A stretch of 32,257 nt of DNA, from NCBI GenBank assembly GCA_020248265.1, contig JADCHX010000029.1, positions 1 through 32,257 on the forward strand, read 5' to 3'. A model generated the notes under the pieces. That model was not told where the DNA came from, made no database searches, and saw nothing but the letters and a program-made list of their open reading frames with translations. Both the position numbers and the translations under genes were made by a program. This DNA is from Rhodocyclaceae bacterium. Lineage in GTDB: Bacteria; Pseudomonadota; Gammaproteobacteria; Burkholderiales; CAIKXV01. Of the stretch, positions 3,674 through 26,387 are shown piece by piece. Position 1 is the stretch's first letter. Each line of letters starts with the position of its first letter.

Positions 3674-3841
3674 GGATGACCCTTTCCGGTGTGGCAGGTG
3701 ACTTGCAAAGTCTATCGCAACGACCGCTTTCCACCAGCAACAAGCCTGACGCGTTCGTGTCCGAGGCCGGCCCCGGACGCGGACGCGCCCCCTCACAATG
3801 ACGGTACCATCTCGTTCGACTCGCACCCAGGAGGAGCACCG

Positions 3842-4825
3842 ATGCGCACAGCCACCCCACCGAAGGGTCCTCTCGCCCTCGCAGCGAGCCTGCTCGCCGC
3901 CCTCGCGCTTGCCGCACCCGTCCTGGCGCAGACGGACTATCCCAACAAGCCGGTGCGCATCATCAACCCGTTTGTCGCCGGCAGCACCACCGACGTGCTC
4001 GCGCGGGCGCTGGGCGCGGGCCTGGCGAGCCGGCTGGGCCAGCCGTTCGTGGTCGAGAACCGGGGCGGCGCCGGCGGTGCGATCGGCACCGCCGCCGTCG
4101 CCCGCGCCGACGCGGACGGCTACACGCTGCTGTTCGCGCCCGCGCTCGTGCTGTCGGTGCATCCGCAGGACCGCGCCGATACCGGCTACCGCACCGACTC
4201 GCTGGTGCCGATCTGCCAGACCTTCATCAATGCGATGGCGCTGGTGGTGCGCCCCGAGTCGCCGATCCGGTCGGTGGCCGATCTCGTCGCCGCCGCGAAG
4301 GCCAAGCCCGGGGCGCTCAACTACGGACACCAGGGCAGCATGACCATCCCGCACCTGGCGATGGAGGAATTCCTGATCGCCGCGAACCTCGACATCCGCG
4401 ACATCCCGTTCCGAGGCGAGCCGCTGGTCATCGCCGACGTGCTCGGCGGGCGCCTTGACGTGGCCTCGATCGTGCTGGGCTCGGCCGTGGGACAGAACGT
4501 GCGCGTGATCGGTGTCTTCGGCGAATCGCGGCACCCCGGCTTCCCCGACGTGCCCACGGTTCGCGAGCAGGGCTACGACGTCAGTCCGGCGAGCTTCGGC
4601 GGCCTGATGGCCCCTGCCGGCACGCCGGCACCGTTGCTCGCGCGGCTGTCCGAGGCCTGCACGGCGGCGGCGAACGACACGGCCTACCGGGCAGTGGCCG
4701 AGCGCGCCGCCCAGCCGCCGAACTTCTTCGACAACGCCGCCGGGTTCCGCGCGCGCCTGGAGCGCGACATCTCCGCCAAGGCACGCGTGCTGGCGCGACT
4801 CAAGGCGCGACCGGCGGCGAAGTAA
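3842..4825 (+). CDS. Bug/TctC-family periplasmic receptor
   Basis: The 327-residue protein is an extracytoplasmic solute receptor of the tripartite tricarboxylate transporter type. Such receptors bind small carboxylates or similar ligands in the periplasm. An N-terminal signal peptide (hydrophobic residues 10-28, cleavage near VLA-Q) is followed by the family opening YPNKPVRIINPFVAGSTTDVLAR. The family's VVENRGGAGGAIGT and ADGYTLLFAP blocks and the late EQGYDVSPASFGGLMAPAGTPAP block follow. ATG 3842 is chosen for the strong AGGAGGAG just upstream and the signal peptide directly behind it. No TctA/TctB genes are in the window, so it is an orphan receptor. Ligand unknown. Confidence 0.9.
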   Translation: MRTATPPKGPLALAASLLAALALAAPVLAQTDYPNKPVRIINPFVAGSTTDVLARALGAGLASRLGQPFVVENRGGAGGAIGTAAVARADADGYTLLFAPALVLSVHPQDRADTGYRTDSLVPICQTFINAMALVVRPESPIRSVADLVAAAKAKPGALNYGHQGSMTIPHLAMEEFLIAANLDIRDIPFRGEPLVIADVLGGRLDVASIVLGSAVGQNVRVIGVFGESRHPGFPDVPTVREQGYDVSPASFGGLMAPAGTPAPLLARLSEACTAAANDTAYRAVAERAAQPPNFFDNAAGFRARLERDISAKARVLARLKARPAAK

Positions 4826-5741: not shown

Positions 5742-6716
5742 TCAGTCGGGCTTCGCGCCCGACAGCTTCACGATCTTCGCGTACTTCTCGACCTCGGCGG
5801 CGAGGAACGCGGCTGCCTCGGCCGGCGAGCTGCCCACGGGTTCCGAGTTCTCGCGCTGCATCCAGCCCTTCACGTCCGGGTGCTGCAGCGCGGCCACCGC
5901 CTCCGCGTGCAGGCGACCGACGATCGGCGTTGGCGTGCCGGCGGGTGCGAACAGCACGTACCACTGATCTACGTTGAACCCCGGATAGACCGCGGCGACC
6001 GTCGGCACCTCCGGCAGCGCGGCGATGCGTCGCTCGGTGGTCACTGCGATCGGCCGCAGCTTGCCCGACCGGATGAACGGCAGCACGCTGGTGGTGGCCT
6101 GGAAGCCGAGAACCACTTCGCCCGCGACGAGGGCCCCCACCGCCGGATTGGCTCCCTTGTAAGGGATATGGGTGAGCGGGGTACCAGCCATGTGCTCGAA
6201 CATCACGCCAGCCAGATGCGAGCCGGTCCCGCTGCCGTTGGAGCCATAGTTCAGGCCGCCCTTTTCCTTGCGCGACAGCGCAACCAGATCGCGCACGCTG
6301 CGCACCGGCAACGACGGATGCACCACCACGACGATCGGCGAGCGCGCGAACTGCGTGATGGCGACGAAGTCCTTGCGGATGTCGAAGGCGAGCTTCGAGT
6401 AGAGCGTGGCGTTGATCGCGGTGGAGGTGGTGGAGAACAACAGCGTGTAGCCGTCCGGTGGCGCCTTCGCCACGATTTCGGCGCCGAGGTTGCCACCTGC
6501 GCCCGGACGGTTGTCCACCATCGCCGTCTGGCCGAACACATCGGTGTAGCGCTGGGCCAGCAGCCGCGCCAGCAGGTCGGTACCGCCGCCGGCCGCAAAC
6601 GGCAGCACGATGCGCACCGGGCGCGTCGGATAGGACTGTGCAGCCACCGGCAGCACGCCGCACAGCACAGCCGCGCCCATGACGATCGCCGCCCACCGCG
6701 TTGCCTGCCGGTTCAT
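5742..6716 (-). CDS. Bug/TctC-family periplasmic receptor
   Basis: This 324-residue receptor of the tripartite tricarboxylate family has a signal peptide (MNRQATRW, then AAIVMGAAVLCGVLPVA, cleavage near VAA-Q). The canonical SYPTRPVRIVLPFAAGGGTD follows. The family's NRPGAGGNLGAEIVAKAPPDG and IPYKGANPAVGALVAGEV blocks are intact, and it ends KIVKLSGAKPD. Three in-frame ATGs compete (6767, 6734, 6716). I chose 6716 because GGGAGGAGAC is ideally placed before it and the signal peptide starts there. It lies 52 bp downstream of the enolase-superfamily gene on the same strand, so it may deliver that enzyme's substrate. Confidence 0.9.
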   Translation of the reverse strand: MNRQATRWAAIVMGAAVLCGVLPVAAQSYPTRPVRIVLPFAAGGGTDLLARLLAQRYTDVFGQTAMVDNRPGAGGNLGAEIVAKAPPDGYTLLFSTTSTAINATLYSKLAFDIRKDFVAITQFARSPIVVVVHPSLPVRSVRDLVALSRKEKGGLNYGSNGSGTGSHLAGVMFEHMAGTPLTHIPYKGANPAVGALVAGEVVLGFQATTSVLPFIRSGKLRPIAVTTERRIAALPEVPTVAAVYPGFNVDQWYVLFAPAGTPTPIVGRLHAEAVAALQHPDVKGWMQRENSEPVGSSPAEAAAFLAAEVEKYAKIVKLSGAKPD

Positions 6717-6768
6717 TGTCTCCTCCCGGTTCATCGTCTTCCCCCGGTTCCGCGGCGTGGACGTCATG

Positions 6769-8008: not shown

Positions 8009-9004
8009 CTATTCCACGGTCACGCCATGCTGGCGGATCAACCGGCCCCAGCGCTCGGTCTCGGACTTGAGAAAAGCCTCCTGCTGCGCGGCGGGTACGG
8101 ACATCACCCGCCCGCCGGCCTGCACGACGCGTGCGCCGAAGTCGGCATCGGCCACCACGTCGAGCAGCAGCGCGCGCAGGCGATCCACCACCGCGGGCGT
8201 CGTGGCCGAGGGCGCGAACAGCGCCATCCATGACTCGCCGTCGAAGGCCGCGACCCCGCTCTCGGTGACGGTGGGCACCTGCGGCAGCGAAGGCGCGCGG
8301 CGTGCGGGCGACACCGCCAGTGCCTTCAGTCGTCCGGACTCGATGTGCTTGAGCGACGCGGACAGGTTGTCGAACATCAGGTCGATGCGCCCGGCCATCA
8401 TGTCGGGATGCGCCATCGAGGCGCCCTTGTAGGGCACGTGGATCAGGTCGAGCCCCATGGCCCGGAACAGGATCGTCGCCCACACATGCTGCAGGCTGCC
8501 CGATCCGGCCGATGCATAGGTGAGCCGGCCCGGACGTTCCTTCGCGTAGCGCGCGAACTCCGACAGCGTGTTCGCCGGAAGGTCGGGGCGCGCCACCAGC
8601 ACGAAGGGATAGGCGGCAACGAACCCGGTCACCACGAAGTCGCGTGCCGAGTCGTAGGCGAGGTTGCGATAGAGGAACGGGTTCATCACCATCGAGCTGC
8701 CGCTGCCGAAGAGCAGCGTGTGCCCGTCGGGCGGCGCTTTCGCCACGAAGCCGGTGCCGGTGGCCGACCCCGCTCCGGGGCGGTTCTCGACGTAGGCCGC
8801 CACTCGCAGCGCCTCTGACAGCGTGCGTGCGACGTTGCGCGCAGTGAGGTCTGTCCCGCCGCCCGGACCCGAGGCCACCACCAGCCGCAGTGGCCGCGAA
8901 GGAAACTCCTGGGCGAGGGCCGGCGCAGCCACTGCGGCCAGCAGCGCGACCATGCCGATCCAGTGCAGGCGCTGAACGCGCCCGGTGCGTCCCTGCTCCG
9001 ACAT
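8009..9004 (-). CDS. Bug/TctC-family periplasmic receptor
   Basis: A 331-residue receptor with a signal peptide (hydrophobic residues 14-30, cleavage near ALA-Q), then EFPSRPLRLVVASGPGGGTD. The family blocks VENRPGAGSATGTGFVAKAPPDG, VPYKGASMAHPDMMAGRIDL and LPQVPTVTESG are all present. ATG 9004 follows an excellent GAGGAGGAGG site. It heads the presumed minus-strand operon leading to the enolase-superfamily enzyme 130 bp downstream and is divergent from the SnoaL-like gene at 9178. No membrane TctAB partner is nearby. The ligand is unknown but plausibly matches the downstream enzyme. Confidence 0.9.
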   Translation of the reverse strand: MSEQGRTGRVQRLHWIGMVALLAAVAAPALAQEFPSRPLRLVVASGPGGGTDLTARNVARTLSEALRVAAYVENRPGAGSATGTGFVAKAPPDGHTLLFGSGSSMVMNPFLYRNLAYDSARDFVVTGFVAAYPFVLVARPDLPANTLSEFARYAKERPGRLTYASAGSGSLQHVWATILFRAMGLDLIHVPYKGASMAHPDMMAGRIDLMFDNLSASLKHIESGRLKALAVSPARRAPSLPQVPTVTESGVAAFDGESWMALFAPSATTPAVVDRLRALLLDVVADADFGARVVQAGGRVMSVPAAQQEAFLKSETERWGRLIRQHGVTVE

Positions 9005-9817: not shown

Positions 9818-10810
9818 CTACGGCAACTTGATGCCGGCGTCGCGGATCACCTTCGTCCAGCGCGCGATCTCGCCATTCACGTAGGCCTCGGTGTCGGGAA
9901 GCGTCATGTCGAGCACCCGGCCGCTGCCGTTCTCGAACCGGCTGACCACCTCGGGCATCGCCATCGTCTTTTCGAACGCGGCACGTAGCCGCGCCACGAT
10001 GGGCTGCGGCGTATCGCGGCGCACGAACGGGCCGAACCAGGTCTCCATCTCCAGCTTGCCGACCCCCGTCTCGGCGACGGTGGGCACGTTCGGCAGGAAG
10101 GACAGGCGCACCGGGCTTGAGGTGGCGAAGACCTTGACCGCGCCTTTTTCGATATGGGCGCGCGCCGTCTGGATGTTGTCGAAGTACAGGTCGAGGCGCC
10201 CGCCCAGCAGGTCCTGGTGCACCGCGGTCGCGCCCTTGTAGAAAATGCTGAGCGCATCGACCTTCGTCTGCGCGAAGAGGGCGACGGTGGCGACATGCTG
10301 TCCGGTTCCGGGTGCGCCGCCGAAGGTGAGCTTGCCAGGATGCGCGCGGCCGTATTCGATCACCTCTTTCAGCGTGTTCGCCGGAAGGTCGCGGCGGCCG
10401 ATCAGCGTGTACGAGTACGACACGGCCAGCCCGACCGGACGGAAGTCATGCGGGTCGTAGCTGAGGGCCGGGTGCAGTCCCGGATTGAGCGCGATGTTCG
10501 ACAGCCCGCCGACCAGTACCGTATGGCCATCGGCTGGCGCCTTCGCGACCACCTCGGTGCCGCCGATCGTCCCGGCGATCGCGCGATTCTCCACCACCAT
10601 CTGCACGCCCAGCAGCGGGCCCATCTTCTCGGAGAGCACGCGCGCGGTGACATCGAAGCCGCCCCCGGGCAGCGAGGGCACGATCATCCGGATCGGCCTG
10701 GAGGGGTAGGACTGCGCGAAGACCGGCGCCGCCAGCGGAGTGGTCACCTGCGCGGCCACCAGCGCGGCGGCGAGCGCCGCGAGCGGGCGCGAGAAAGTGG
10801 GTCTGGCCAT
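9818..10810 (-). CDS. Bug/TctC-family periplasmic receptor
   Basis: This 330-residue receptor has a long Ala-rich signal peptide (cleavage near VFA-Q, about residue 33) and SYPSRPIRMIVPSLPGGGFD. Further family blocks are VVENRAIAGTIGGTEVVAKAPADG, IFYKGATAVHQDLLGGRLDL and LPNVPTVAETG, with the typical end RWTKVIRDAGIKLP. ATG 10810 is preceded by CTGGAGGAG. It stands alone on the minus strand, ending 25 bp from the convergent SnoaL-like gene. The GGG to GGF change at the ligand loop (PGGGFDVTA) is within family variation. Ligand unknown. Confidence 0.9.
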   Translation of the reverse strand: MARPTFSRPLAALAAALVAAQVTTPLAAPVFAQSYPSRPIRMIVPSLPGGGFDVTARVLSEKMGPLLGVQMVVENRAIAGTIGGTEVVAKAPADGHTVLVGGLSNIALNPGLHPALSYDPHDFRPVGLAVSYSYTLIGRRDLPANTLKEVIEYGRAHPGKLTFGGAPGTGQHVATVALFAQTKVDALSIFYKGATAVHQDLLGGRLDLYFDNIQTARAHIEKGAVKVFATSSPVRLSFLPNVPTVAETGVGKLEMETWFGPFVRRDTPQPIVARLRAAFEKTMAMPEVVSRFENGSGRVLDMTLPDTEAYVNGEIARWTKVIRDAGIKLP

Positions 10811-22946: not shown

Positions 22947-23942
22947 GTGATCAGTGAAGCGCGCCGTCGGCTGGGCCTCTCGGCATTGTTGGTGGCCTCC
23001 AGCGGTCATGCCGCTGCGTCGAGCGGGCTGCTTCTGCTGCCTTTCCTGCCCTCCGGCCCCACCGAAATCGTCGGCACCGTTCCTTCGAGCCGTATCCAGC
23101 GTGCGATGCAGTCGGCGTCCGGCTCGGCATTGTCCGACGCCGTGGCGCGCGCGGTCGCCCGCATTGCGGAGGGGCATCTCGGGCACCGGCTTGCGGTGGA
23201 GCGGATGCCGGCGGCAGGCGGGCAGCGAGCGGTCGAGCAGATGGTCGGTCAGTCGGCGGACTCAGGCAGCCTGCTGCTCGCGAGCGAGGCACTGTGCGTG
23301 CACGCGGCGCTCGAGCGCCCGGCGCTGGCTGCGCTGCTCGATCGCCTGCAACCAGTGGCATCCTGCGTTGCGGTGCCGTACCTGCTGCTGCACGGCGCGG
23401 CGCTGGCCGATTGTGTGATCGGCAGCGCCGGCCACGGCGGCCGGTCTGCAGCGCTCGCGCGCAGCCTGGCGGCGCAGCGCCGGGCCGGTAGCGCGGCACC
23501 GATGTGCCGGGAAGTCGCGTTCAACGGCGGGGCGGCCGCGCTGCAGGCGCTGCTCGGCGGCCAGATACCCATGGCCGTGCTGCCGCGGGCCCTGGCGGGC
23601 ACCTGGGTCGAGCGGGGCGTGCTGCGCGCAGAGCCGGTGATGTCGGATACCGAGGGGCCGCCCTCGGAAGGCTGGTTCGGCGTGTTCGCACCCTCCAGCT
23701 GGGTGGCGCGGCGGGTGACCGCGCTTGGCGAGGCTCTGCAGGCGGGATTCTCCGATCCGGTGCAGCAGGCGTGGCTCGAGCGGCTGGGGTTGCGAGCGAT
23801 GCCGGAGTCCGGATCAGCGCTGGGAAACCGCATCCGCGAGGAGCGTGACAGCCTGCGCGACCAGAAAAAGCGGGCAGGCTTTTCGGCCTGCCCGGAAAGA
23901 GGCAACAGAAGAGGAGGGGGGTCTGTTGCTTGGATTCTTTAG
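22947..23942 (+). CDS. Divergent Bug-like periplasmic protein
   Basis: The 331-residue frame has weak but ordered resemblance to Bug receptors: an N-terminal hydrophobic segment (LGLSALLVASSGHAAA), AVERMPAAGGQRAVEQMVG where others have the NRPGAGG block, GSLLLASEALCVH, FNGGAAALQALLGGQIPMAVLP (the YKGG block) and WFGVFAPSSW. It lacks the canonical YPxRPVRxxVP opening. The start GTG 22947 has no clear ribosome site. The last 25 codons run through a terminator hairpin and the minus-strand sRNA candidate, giving an odd tail (QKKRAGFSACPERGNRRGGG). It may be a decaying gene or a truly divergent receptor. Confidence 0.5.
   Translation: MISEARRRLGLSALLVASSGHAAASSGLLLLPFLPSGPTEIVGTVPSSRIQRAMQSASGSALSDAVARAVARIAEGHLGHRLAVERMPAAGGQRAVEQMVGQSADSGSLLLASEALCVHAALERPALAALLDRLQPVASCVAVPYLLLHGAALADCVIGSAGHGGRSAALARSLAAQRRAGSAAPMCREVAFNGGAAALQALLGGQIPMAVLPRALAGTWVERGVLRAEPVMSDTEGPPSEGWFGVFAPSSWVARRVTALGEALQAGFSDPVQQAWLERLGLRAMPESGSALGNRIREERDSLRDQKKRAGFSACPERGNRRGGGSVAWIL
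23861..23894 (-). terminator. Intrinsic terminator on the minus strand
   Basis: On the minus strand CGGGCAGGC (23894-23886), loop CGAAAA, GCCTGCCCG (23879-23871), then CTTTTTCT. A 9-bp GC-rich stem plus a T-run makes this a good Rho-independent terminator for leftward transcription. On the plus strand there is no T-run after the stem. Confidence 0.75.
23862..23941 (-). ncRNA. Candidate small RNA with CCUCCUC loop (minus)
   Basis: Read on the minus strand, a 7-bp perfect stem GCAACAG/CTGTTGC (arms at 23931-23925 and 23910-23904) presents a 14-nt loop, ACCCCCCTCCTCTT. AAAGA and TCTTT outside could extend the stem. It is followed at once by a strong terminator hairpin. An exposed CCUCCUC loop is complementary to Shine-Dalgarno sequences and is the hallmark of cuckoo/CcsR-type and similar Neisseria sibling sRNAs; that comparison is from memory. 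Predicted length is about 80 nt. It is antisense to the 3' end of the divergent Bug-like frame. Exact ends are inferred. Confidence 0.6.
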
Positions 23943-23945
23943 CGA

Positions 23946-23972
23946 CTTGAAGCGCGCAGGACTTTAGGTTCC
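23946..23972 (-). promoter_or_regulatory. Possible sigmaE-type promoter of the minus-strand sRNA
   Basis: On the minus strand GGAAC (23972-23968), 17 bp, TCAAG (23950-23946) resembles the ECF/RpoE pattern (GGAAC near -35, TC-rich -10). Transcription would start around 23940, just before the sRNA hairpin. No convincing sigma70 boxes were found in this interval. Confidence 0.3.
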
Positions 23973-24028: not shown

Positions 24029-24048
24029 GTCCAATCGATTGATTGGAC
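24029..24048. promoter_or_regulatory. Inverted repeat between the two sRNA candidates
   Basis: GTCCAATC (24029-24036), GATT, GATTGGAC (24041-24048) is a perfect 8-bp inverted repeat. It sits about 60 bp upstream of the minus sRNA promoter and 130 bp upstream of the plus promoter, so it could be a shared operator. No T-run follows it. Confidence 0.45.
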
Positions 24049-24175
24049 TGGCGAACCAGATGTGTCCGTCGTCAGGTCCAGACGACAGGCGACCGCCTGC
24101 CGGTGATCGATCCCGCCGGCATCTGGCATTTTCGCTGTGTCGCGCTTCGACAATGACGCACCGCACAATCAATGC

Positions 24176-24204
24176 TTGATTTTGTCAGCGCATCGGCGTA
24201 CCAT
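24176..24204 (+). promoter_or_regulatory. Sigma70 promoter of the plus-strand sRNA
   Basis: TTGATT (24176-24181) and TACCAT (24199-24204) are separated by exactly 17 bp. A start near 24211 would give an RNA of about 90 nt ending at the strong terminator at 24274-24301. Confidence 0.5.
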
Positions 24205-24210
24205 CCTTTC

Positions 24211-24301
24211 CGTGCCAGACGTTAACAGCGTCTCGCATAATCCTCCGAAACCTCCTCCTTTGGTGGATTTTCAGCGGAACCGACAGGTTCCGCTTTTTTT
24301 T
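24211..24301 (+). ncRNA. Candidate small RNA with CCUCCUCC loop (plus)
   Basis: Three hairpins follow the promoter. Hairpin one is AGACG/CGTCT (24217-24221, 24229-24233). Hairpin two pairs AATCC-T-CC (24239-24246) with GG-T-GGATT (24262-24269), with one T-T mismatch, and displays GAAACCTCCTCCTTT in its loop, including CCTCCTCC at 24251-24258. The third is the terminator with eight T residues. No reading frame here has a ribosome site or recognisable domain. An anti-Shine-Dalgarno loop between a 5' hairpin and a terminator is the architecture of cuckoo-type/CcsR sRNAs. Function would be translational repression of mRNAs, possibly with Hfq; this is inference. Confidence 0.65.
24274..24301 (+). 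terminator. Strong Rho-independent terminator
   Basis: GCGGAACC (24274-24281), loop GACA, GGTTCCGC (24286-24293), then eight T residues (24294-24301). A textbook intrinsic terminator on the plus strand with no protein gene directly upstream, which supports a small RNA gene ending here. Confidence 0.9.
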
Positions 24302-24451: not shown

Positions 24452-24465
24452 TTGTCCATGGACAA
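24452..24465. promoter_or_regulatory. Perfect 14-bp palindrome TTGTCCATGGACAA
   Basis: A perfect palindrome lies about 60 bp downstream of the ABC transporter stop, in the gene-poor stretch 24302-24527. Its TTGTCCA half-site also occurs at 24028-24034, in the inverted repeat between the sRNA candidates, hinting at one binding protein. No gene is evident between 24302 and 24527. Confidence 0.3.
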
Positions 24466-24527: not shown

Positions 24528-26330
24528 CTAACGGCCTGACGGCGACAGTGGCGCGAGCTCCCAGAGTCCGTGTCCCATGGAAGACAACCTGTTGCGGTGC
24601 CAGCGCCAGAGCGTGCGCCGGTGCCCGACACTGACGATCGTGGTGTCTGGCAGCGCCTGCACGAGCAGTCCATGCAGCGCTTCCTCCGACGGCTCATCCA
24701 GCGCCGAGGTGGATTCGTCGAGGAACAGCAGCGTCGGCTCGAGCAGGAGCGCACGGGCGAAGGCCACCCGCTGCTGCTCGCCGCCCGAGAGTACCTGCGC
24801 CCACAGGTCGGACTGGTCGAGGCGGGCAGTGAAGTGTCCGAGGCCGCATCGTTCCAGCACGGACTCGAATCGGGGATCGTCGGCCGGCACCGCGGCGCCG
24901 GGATAGCAGAGGGCCTCGCGCAGCGTGCCCGATGGCAGATAGGGCTTCTGTGGCAGGAACAGTACCTCGCCGCGCGGCGGCAGCGTCACTTCTCCCTGCC
25001 CATAGGGCCAGATGCCGGCCAGTGCGCGCAGGAGCGTGCTCTTGCCGGAGCCGGACGGCCCGCTGACCAGCAGCGCGTCGCCTGCGCGGATGTCTAGATC
25101 CAGCCTGGCGACCAGGAGACGGCCATCGGGCAGGGCCACGTCCAGCCCGCGTACGCTCAGCACCGGCACGGCGCTGGCCTGCCCGGTGCCTGCCTCCGGC
25201 TGAGCACTGACCGTCGTGCGCGCGCCCTCGCAGAAGAGAAACCGGTCCGCGCGGCGGGTGCGCTGTTCCGAGTCCAGCATCCGCTGCTCGAAGCCGGTGA
25301 GTCGGTCCACCGTCGCCTTCCATGCGGCAATCGCCGGGTAGGCATTGATCAGGTACGACAGCGCACCGTGTACCTGTCCGAAGGCGGAGGAGATCTGCAT
25401 CAGGCCGCCGAGCTGTATCTCCTTCGCGAAGTAGCGCGGCGCGGAGACCACGAAGGGAAACACGGTGGCAAGCTGGTTGTATCCGTTGCTGAACCAGGTG
25501 AGCTTCTTCTGCCGTCGCATCAACTGCCAGTAGTTGGCGAACACGGCGCCGAACCGCGCGCCCAGCCGTGCGCGCTCGCCTGCTTCGCCCCGGTACAGGG
25601 CGACGCTCTCGCTGTTCTCGCGCAGGCGCATCAGGCCATAACGGAAGTCGGCCTCATGCCGCTGCTGCTCGAAGGTGAGCCTCGCCAGCGGGCGCCCGAT
25701 CAGGTTGGCGAGCCAGGTGCCGATCGCCGCGTAGGCCACGGCCGCCCAGACCATGTACCCCGGGACGGTCAGTTCAATGCCCCCGATCGACACGGTGGCC
25801 GGGCCGGACAGCGACCACAGCACCACGACGAACGACGCGAGCGTGACGATCGCGTTCATCAGGCCGAGCCCGATCTCCAGCGTCTGGTCGCACATCAGGC
25901 GCAGGTCTTCGCTGATGCGCTGGTCCGGGTTGTCGGTGCCGGCACCGGTGCCGGCATCGAGCAGTTGCACCCGGTAATAGGCCTGTCCGGACAGCCACCG
26001 TTCGATGTAGCGGGTGGTCAGCCAGCGCCGCCAGCGGACCTGCAGCATCTGGTTCAGGTAGAGCTGGTACACGACGATCAGGATGTAGACCGCTGCCAGC
26101 AGCAGGAAGTACCAGAGCAGGGCCACGAAGCCCGGCCGGTCGTAGTCCTGGATCGCGTTGTAGAAGCTGTTGTACCAGGCGTTGACCTGCACCAGCATGA
26201 AGACCGAGGCCAGGTTGAGCGCTACCACCGCGCACAGCAGCAGCCACGCCATGCCGCGTTCCTCGGACTTCCAGTAGGGGCATGCGAGGCGCCAGAACAG
26301 GCGCAGGAATTCGAGCAATCGCGTCGGCAT
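24528..26330 (-). CDS. SbmA/BacA (YddA)-type ABC transporter, fused permease-ATPase
   Basis: The 600-residue protein fuses an N-terminal SbmA/BacA-like membrane domain (about 1-330; six helices, with WYNSFYNAIQDYD and LTFEQQRHEADFRYGLMRLR family motifs) to an ATPase domain. The ATPase shows Walker A GPSGSGKST, Q-loop LPQKPYLPSGTLREAL, signature LSGGEQQR, Walker B LLFLDEST and switch GHR. Relatives such as YddA and Rv1819c-like proteins move peptides, cobalamin or similar hydrophilic compounds. ATG 26330 is preferred, with GGAG 10 nt upstream; an in-frame TTG at 26375 would add 15 residues. It is a half-size transporter expected to dimerise, and has no partner gene here. Confidence 0.88.
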   Translation of the reverse strand: MPTRLLEFLRLFWRLACPYWKSEERGMAWLLLCAVVALNLASVFMLVQVNAWYNSFYNAIQDYDRPGFVALLWYFLLLAAVYILIVVYQLYLNQMLQVRWRRWLTTRYIERWLSGQAYYRVQLLDAGTGAGTDNPDQRISEDLRLMCDQTLEIGLGLMNAIVTLASFVVVLWSLSGPATVSIGGIELTVPGYMVWAAVAYAAIGTWLANLIGRPLARLTFEQQRHEADFRYGLMRLRENSESVALYRGEAGERARLGARFGAVFANYWQLMRRQKKLTWFSNGYNQLATVFPFVVSAPRYFAKEIQLGGLMQISSAFGQVHGALSYLINAYPAIAAWKATVDRLTGFEQRMLDSEQRTRRADRFLFCEGARTTVSAQPEAGTGQASAVPVLSVRGLDVALPDGRLLVARLDLDIRAGDALLVSGPSGSGKSTLLRALAGIWPYGQGEVTLPPRGEVLFLPQKPYLPSGTLREALCYPGAAVPADDPRFESVLERCGLGHFTARLDQSDLWAQVLSGGEQQRVAFARALLLEPTLLFLDESTSALDEPSEEALHGLLVQALPDTTIVSVGHRRTLWRWHRNRLSSMGHGLWELAPLSPSGR

Positions 26331-26387
26331 CGAGAGGGGGCTCCGGTGGGCTCGGCGCACAGTATCATCCTGCAAGAGGCGTGCTGA

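Follow-up and report, generated by a model that had tools for sequence, protein, structure and literature searches.

A short segment on the minus strand of the DNA studied here probably is a genuine small RNA (sRNA) gene with a FliA-type promoter, and its product would act through an anti-Shine-Dalgarno (anti-SD) loop and with Hfq to repress translation at ribosome-binding sites, as the sigma-28 branch of a small RNA family. The DNA analysed is a stretch of 32,257 nucleotides (the window), which is contig C29 of a genome of 4.55 Mb in 33 contigs (G000). The element is situated between a TctC-like open reading frame (ORF) and an SbmA/BacA-like ABC transporter gene (24528-26375 -).

Table 1. Positions of the elements discussed; numbering is that of the window unless a contig is named.
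Feature	Position	Strand	Remarks
Predicted sRNA	23865..23934	-	about 65-70 nt; 5' end placed from the promoter
Hairpin 1	23902..23929	-	7-bp stem GCAACAG/CTGTTGC; anti-SD loop ACCCCCCTCCTCTT at 23909-23922
Intrinsic terminator	23865..23894	-	9-bp stem 23871-23894, then CTTTTT 23865-23870
Sigma-28 (FliA)-type promoter	23939..23966	-	TAAAGT-N14-GTCGCTAA; same offset in G005 and G009
GGAAC-N17-TCAAG motif (stress-sigma site of the initial annotation)	23946..23972	-	window only
TctC-like ORF	22947..23942	+	PF03401 26.4 bits, just under the cut-off of 27; 3' end overlaps the sRNA hairpin
Sibling sRNA gene	24176..24301	+	promoter TTGATT-N17-TACCAT 24176-24204; anti-SD hairpin 24240-24268; terminator 24273-24294
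Third candidate	G000:C11:330235-330290 (L145 10235-10290)	+	CATCCTCCTCCTTTGGAT plus terminator; 7 genus loci

Structure and conservation of the minus-strand element

The sequence supports an sRNA gene with an anti-SD loop on the minus strand. The perfect 7-bp stem with its loop, the 9-bp terminator stem and the CTTTTT run described in the initial annotation are all present (Table 1), and an eighth pair, A-U, is possible in the hairpin 1 stem. The terminator was said to follow the hairpin directly, which is only nearly right because a spacer of 7 nt parts the two. The interval originally proposed (23861..23972) folds with z -2.68, 3 of 200 shuffles being equally good, and for 23855-23945 (-) the value is -3.82 (1 of 200 shuffles). 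In both the MFE and the centroid fold the anti-SD loop is unpaired, and it contains CCTCC in the window and in both orthologues (G005 and G009), which is the unpaired CCUCC-type loop of an anti-SD sRNA. A scan with criteria modelled on the element (perfect 7-bp stem, CCTCC in a loop of 8-16 nt, terminator within 25 nt) gave a single match in 432 kb of the own genome, the element itself, and none in ten Markov-1 randomisations. An Rfam search at E up to 10 gave only two matches on the element: its terminator with CC0196 at 21.3 bits, below the cut-off of 35, and, on the plus strand, a chance match of 8.5 bits.

A DNA search (E up to 0.001) of the own genome and 40 relatives, 41 genomes in all, found the element in the window, G005 and G009. 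The latter two belong to the same genus and carry the sRNA at the syntenic place, beside the same ABC gene. Comparative folding, which the initial annotation had called for, gave a near-identical stem-loop: the loop of G009 has two additional C and the outermost pair varies, the three copies being otherwise identical. In the terminator helix three pairs are altered on both sides among the three orthologues. Paired cells amount to 94.4%, compared to 35-48% when the partners are slid, for three sequences and a structure drawn from the same three. The stem of hairpin 1 is almost invariant and therefore says little on pairing. The 3' U tract is T8 in G005 and G009 and T5 in the window.

Alternatively, the segment could belong to the TctC-like gene on the plus strand, as its 3' end, and evolve as coding sequence. 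In the window the ORF indeed spans both the hairpin and the terminator, as expected for an element described as antisense to a gene end. In G005 and G009, however, the plus-strand ORF ends short of the hairpin, though it crosses part of the terminator, and in G007, G003 and G010, which are without the sRNA, the ORF ends no more than a few residues away from RDSLRDQ of the window. The overlap thus stands for the window but looks incidental, because in neither orthologue does the ORF reach the hairpin. The paired nature of the terminator changes also argues against coding. Evolution of the segment as plus-strand coding sequence, which the initial annotation had named as evidence against an sRNA, was looked for and was not seen. 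A coding origin was rejected on these grounds and retains only a very slight probability; most likely the element is a lineage-restricted sRNA gene. As a separate observation, the TctC-like ORF and four others of the window (3689-4825, 5742-6767, 8009-9004 and 9818-10810) resemble tricarboxylate (Bug/TctC) receptors by eye.

The syntenic site could be read in seven genomes, and the sRNA is absent from it in four: the close relative G007, which retains TAAAG at the -35 position, and G003, G010 and G001. The site was beyond reach in G008, of which the contig ends before it, and in G002 and G006, where the contigs end inside the ABC gene; the ABC gene was not found in G004. On a tree of the ABC protein, with midpoint root only and several forks unsupported, the 'present' state takes three changes. 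These absences would agree with a decaying relic, or with a terminator that has a hairpin upstream by chance, the loop having no regulatory role. The ORF that runs through the element in the window, the short U tract and the departure of the -10 element from GCCGTTAA point in the same direction. Yet the additional hairpin is near-identical in three genomes in which the neighbouring TctC-like protein is only 34% (partial) to 62% identical, and the promoter stands at a fixed distance from it. We consider a relic unlikely, although it has more in its favour than a coding origin. A functional sRNA gene, the preferred reading, may nevertheless be on its way out in the lineage of the window, since there the -10 element is the furthest of the three from GCCGTTAA and the U tail the shortest, and G007 lacks the gene.

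A model built from the three copies (R1) scores these at 90-94 bits by construction. In 399 genomes of the order, searched with 12 candidates scored per genome and stricter filters, 144 had a match with an E value of 0.1 or less, and the best match outside the training set was 37.8 bits among the matches listed. In the eight other genomes of the genus the best was 25.3 bits (G002) among the matches listed; G003 gave one at E 0.047 only and G001 and G006 none among those listed. Thirty R1 loci were read, including the three used for training; many resemble ordinary terminators and some resemble other anti-SD hairpins. An exact-pattern scan of a contig collection (genome_contigs) yielded two contigs of metagenome-assembled genomes, equal in length to the contigs of G009 and G005. 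Two loci from other families of the order can be mentioned here. In G388 (L065 1501-1574) a long stem presents AACCUCCUCCUC and is followed by a terminator. In G096 four R1 matches fall within 1.6 kb (G096:C8:62352-63885), of which the one that was read (L066) resembles an ordinary terminator.

The promoter of the minus-strand sRNA

All three orthologues have a FliA-type site at a distance of 35-36 nt upstream of the hairpin, as expected of a sigma-28-dependent sRNA. When the upstream regions are aligned on the hairpin, they show TAAAGT (TCAAGT in G005), 14 nt (13 in G005) and then GTCGCTAA in the window and GTCGTTAA or GCCGTTAA in the others. The FliA consensus of E. coli is TAAAGTTT-N11-GCCGATAA, which the predicted promoter resembles. 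Compared to fliC, the spacer has 1 nt more in the window and in G009.

The resemblance was quantified with a matrix, for which the FliA-like sites that precede fliC in eight genomes of the genus were used. These sites were chosen with a relaxed FliA-like pattern, which located one in 8 of 9 fliC loci, G004 having a poor match only. Two further matrices (fliC+mcp and all3) are partly circular, since they include sites from a search whose pattern was modelled on the sRNA promoter; for that reason the fliC-only matrix is relied on. The background comprised 305,424 strand-bases, or 910,116 placements; the sRNA sites themselves are part of it, that of the window two times (in the window and in L031), as are loci that had been collected for a weak similarity to the sRNA. 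Placements scoring as high as the sRNA site, own sites counted, numbered 11 for the window, 5 for G005 and 3 for G009 out of the 910,116.

With slightly different pseudocounts and spacer penalties than in the background scan, the same matrix was run over 432 kb of the own genome, where the sRNA site ranks 11th. Ten of the 20 own-genome stretches had been chosen for motility genes, pattern matches or the C11 RNA described below (four of C19, C15, C2:140001, two of C11, C5:40001 and C24:40001); outside these, in ten others and the window (232 kb), it ranks 3rd. Four of the ten sites above it precede fliC, a Tar/HAMP chemoreceptor gene, flgK and a second flagellin gene, the own fliC ranking first by construction because it is in the training set. 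The other six have no motility label: an unassigned site in L140, an ORF without Pfam match, an RpoH-like sigma-70-family protein, a cNMP-binding protein and two sites without a gene. The promoters of fliD and of a PAS/HAMP protein rank below the sRNA site. In L157 (10253-10279 +) a FliA-like site is present 52 nt before a sigma-70-family gene resembling rpoH. The pattern TAAAGTN13-14GYCGWTAA has 15 matches in 11 genomes of the genus, compared to 1 for the reversed control; one of these belongs to the G009 sRNA, and eight lie before copies of the chemoreceptor gene, which were recognised by eye at the start of the protein.

FliA itself was detected above the cut-off in 9 of the 11 genomes, and FlhA was matched in 9, in 8 of them above the cut-off. 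No FliA scored above the cut-off in G009. The contig with flhA breaks off there 400 bases after this gene, possibly at an assembly gap; in the own genome the distance from flhA to fliA on that side is about 2.6 kb.

The initial annotation had suggested stress-sigma control on the basis of GGAAC-N17-TCAAG, and a real sRNA gene that is read by RpoE or RpoH via this motif should be considered. The motif is present in the window as claimed. Scanned in the form GGAAC-N15-18-TC[AT], the sole form used, the stress-sigma motif was found in one of the three orthologues, and within 60 nt upstream of the hairpin GGAAC-N15-18-TC is absent from both G005 and G009. An RpoE/RpoH promoter was rejected and has little probability, because its motif is confined to the window whereas FliA-type elements at a shared offset are common to all three. 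Recognition by FliA is the better supported assignment.

Sibling RNAs and their promoters

The initial annotation placed a divergent sRNA candidate about 240 bp away. This arrangement was confirmed: seen from the minus-strand hairpin, the predicted -35 element of the plus-strand sibling starts 247 nt off and its hairpin 311 nt off. The sibling was found in all 8 genus loci read and is more widely kept than the minus-strand RNA. TTG-N20-TAnnnT occurs in 7 of 7 loci scanned (all but G001). It scores 27.2 bits with RF02278 (cut-off 50) and 27.0 bits with NmsRb (cut-off 52), both below threshold, and carries CCTCCTCCTTTGG, which the minus-strand loop does not.

A third candidate lies on contig C11 (Table 1), again with scores below threshold (RF02278 25.4 bits, NmsRb 28.4 bits). 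Upstream of it, at 59-62 nt, TGGCAC-N7-GC is present in 7 of 7 loci, where 0.004 would be expected per 110 nt. We take this element to be the sigma-54 -24/-12 form; it was first noticed by eye, after which GG-N10-GC matched in 7 of 7 loci. The pattern CCTCCTCCTTYGG gave 19 matches and its reversed control 3; seven of the 19 are plus-sibling loci, seven are of the C11 type and five are neither. The two best partners of the C11 candidate in a crude duplex prediction are leaders of ORFs that by eye resemble tricarboxylate receptors.

The idea of siblings with the same loop motif and split promoters thus holds in part. Different promoter types are indicated by the sequences, but the loops merely share a CCUCC core and do not have the same motif. 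The best reading would be a single family of anti-SD sRNAs that is split between three sigma factors, in which a sigma-70-type plus-strand RNA of the toxic sRNA/S17/NmsR kind and a sigma-54-type C11 candidate would be the other branches beside the sigma-28-type minus-strand RNA. That sigma-70, sigma-54 and sigma-28 indeed each read the RNA so assigned is a tentative proposal, to which we give somewhat less than even weight. Each promoter type recurs in orthologues of the genus, and consequently the housekeeping, the motile and the enhancer-dependent state would each deliver a repressor of its own. If this is true, three state-specific repressors act on overlapping ribosome-binding sites, and the set would be a natural test case for how siblings with similar seeds are kept apart by their time of synthesis.

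Some palindromic sequences were seen in the same region. Between the two divergent sRNA promoters, at 24029-24048, the window has GTCCAATC-GATT-GATTGGAC, and beyond the ABC gene, at 24452-24465, it has TTGTCCATGGACAA. Forms of the type GTCCA...TGGAC recur in several relatives, by eye, and a regulator site is possible. A near-palindrome TGGCGCAnYGCACCA, also noticed by eye, lies upstream of the plus-sibling promoter (about 24150-24170) in several relatives and is less clear in the window.

Proposed function and comparison with known systems

Leftward transcription from the FliA-type promoter would produce an RNA in which a 5' hairpin presenting ACCCCCCUCCUCUU is followed by an intrinsic terminator at the 3' end. 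Since Shine-Dalgarno regions rich in purines are complementary to the loop, base-pairing at ribosome-binding sites is the most likely mode of action. The RNA would pair there with the help of Hfq, and translation would be repressed for as long as FliA is active. Hfq (TIGR02383) was detected above the cut-off in all three sRNA-bearing genomes (G000, G005, G009). A search for AAGAGGAGG-N3-10-ATG in the three genomes gave 4 matches and the reversed control 10, hence no excess of candidate targets. RNAduplex predictions over 321 heuristic ORF starts, chosen by length and SD strength without a gene caller, were dominated by G-rich, partly spurious ORFs. In a crude prediction of this kind ORFs of the flagellar cluster (32 from two stretches, several spurious or not flagellar) were not preferred over the 263 others (p = 0.34).

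The RNA could alternatively work mainly by titration or mimicry, as a sponge that takes up SD-rich leaders or ribosomes, and not as a repressor of specific mRNAs. The 16S anti-SD core CCUCC in its loop would suit this role, and the prediction of specific targets was uninformative. On the other hand, S17 of Bordetella pertussis (PMC11722255, a preprint) and NmsR of Neisseria (PMC5362039), which are of similar build, repress at the ribosome-binding sites of specific mRNAs according to the available text of these sources. The anatomy of the minus-strand RNA fits repression as in these two cases, and a titrator seems rather improbable, less so than stress-sigma control but more so than a relic.

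Betaproteobacteria are known to have anti-SD sRNAs, and E. coli and Campylobacter to have sRNAs driven by FliA. If the proposed repressor is real, an anti-SD hairpin RNA with a flagellar promoter joins both kinds, and motility is tied directly to translational repression. The combination of a loop that mimics the ribosome tail with what appears to be a flagellar sigma switch means that swimming and the regulation of protein synthesis may be connected through the minus-strand sRNA. No betaproteobacterial FliA-dependent anti-SD sRNA was among the matches listed in the literature searched.

In E. coli UhpU, MotR, FliX and FlgO are sRNAs expressed under sigma-28, which for the minus-strand RNA is only predicted; as described in the available part of PMC10578931, they differ in being derived from UTRs, and MotR and FliX pair inside coding sequences. 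The term 'Shine-Dalgarno' is absent from the main text of that paper. FliA-dependent sRNAs are also established in Campylobacter (PMC4626219, PMC11187230). The pair CjNC1/CjNC4 of Campylobacter jejuni, apparently identical to CJnc10/CJnc170, with CJnc170 being FlmR, is according to the accessible text of both papers short and FliA-dependent, with predicted pairing at ribosome-binding sites. Like the minus-strand RNA, these RNAs have a conserved pairing stretch and a variable terminator. Their pairing region, however, precedes a single hairpin instead of forming a hairpin loop, and they are aimed at sigma-54 flagellar genes, whereas no flagellar target was found for the minus-strand RNA; the bacteria are also distant.

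The closest likeness in build is to S17, the bdhR1/toxic sRNAs (RF02278) and NmsR (RF02877), which as far as the available text describes them are also short, with a C/U-rich anti-SD loop and a 3' intrinsic terminator. The minus-strand RNA had no RF02278 or NmsRb (RF02877) match at E up to 10 (cut-offs 50 and 52 bits), and none was obtained for the orthologues of G005 and G009 with a limit of E 0.1. The occurrence of siblings within one genome is a further shared trait in the portions of PMC11722255 and PMC5362039 available. S17S, which has a fully conserved 5' region of 27 nt, is described there as an RNase E processing product (PMC11722255), whereas the minus-strand RNA is a predicted primary transcript. 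Its loop, ACCCCCCUCCUCUU, also differs from the CCUCCUCCUUUGG of the betaproteobacterial anti-SD sRNAs, and while these are described, in the text available, with promoters of the sigma-A/sigma-70 type, the minus-strand RNA would be read from one of the sigma-28 type.
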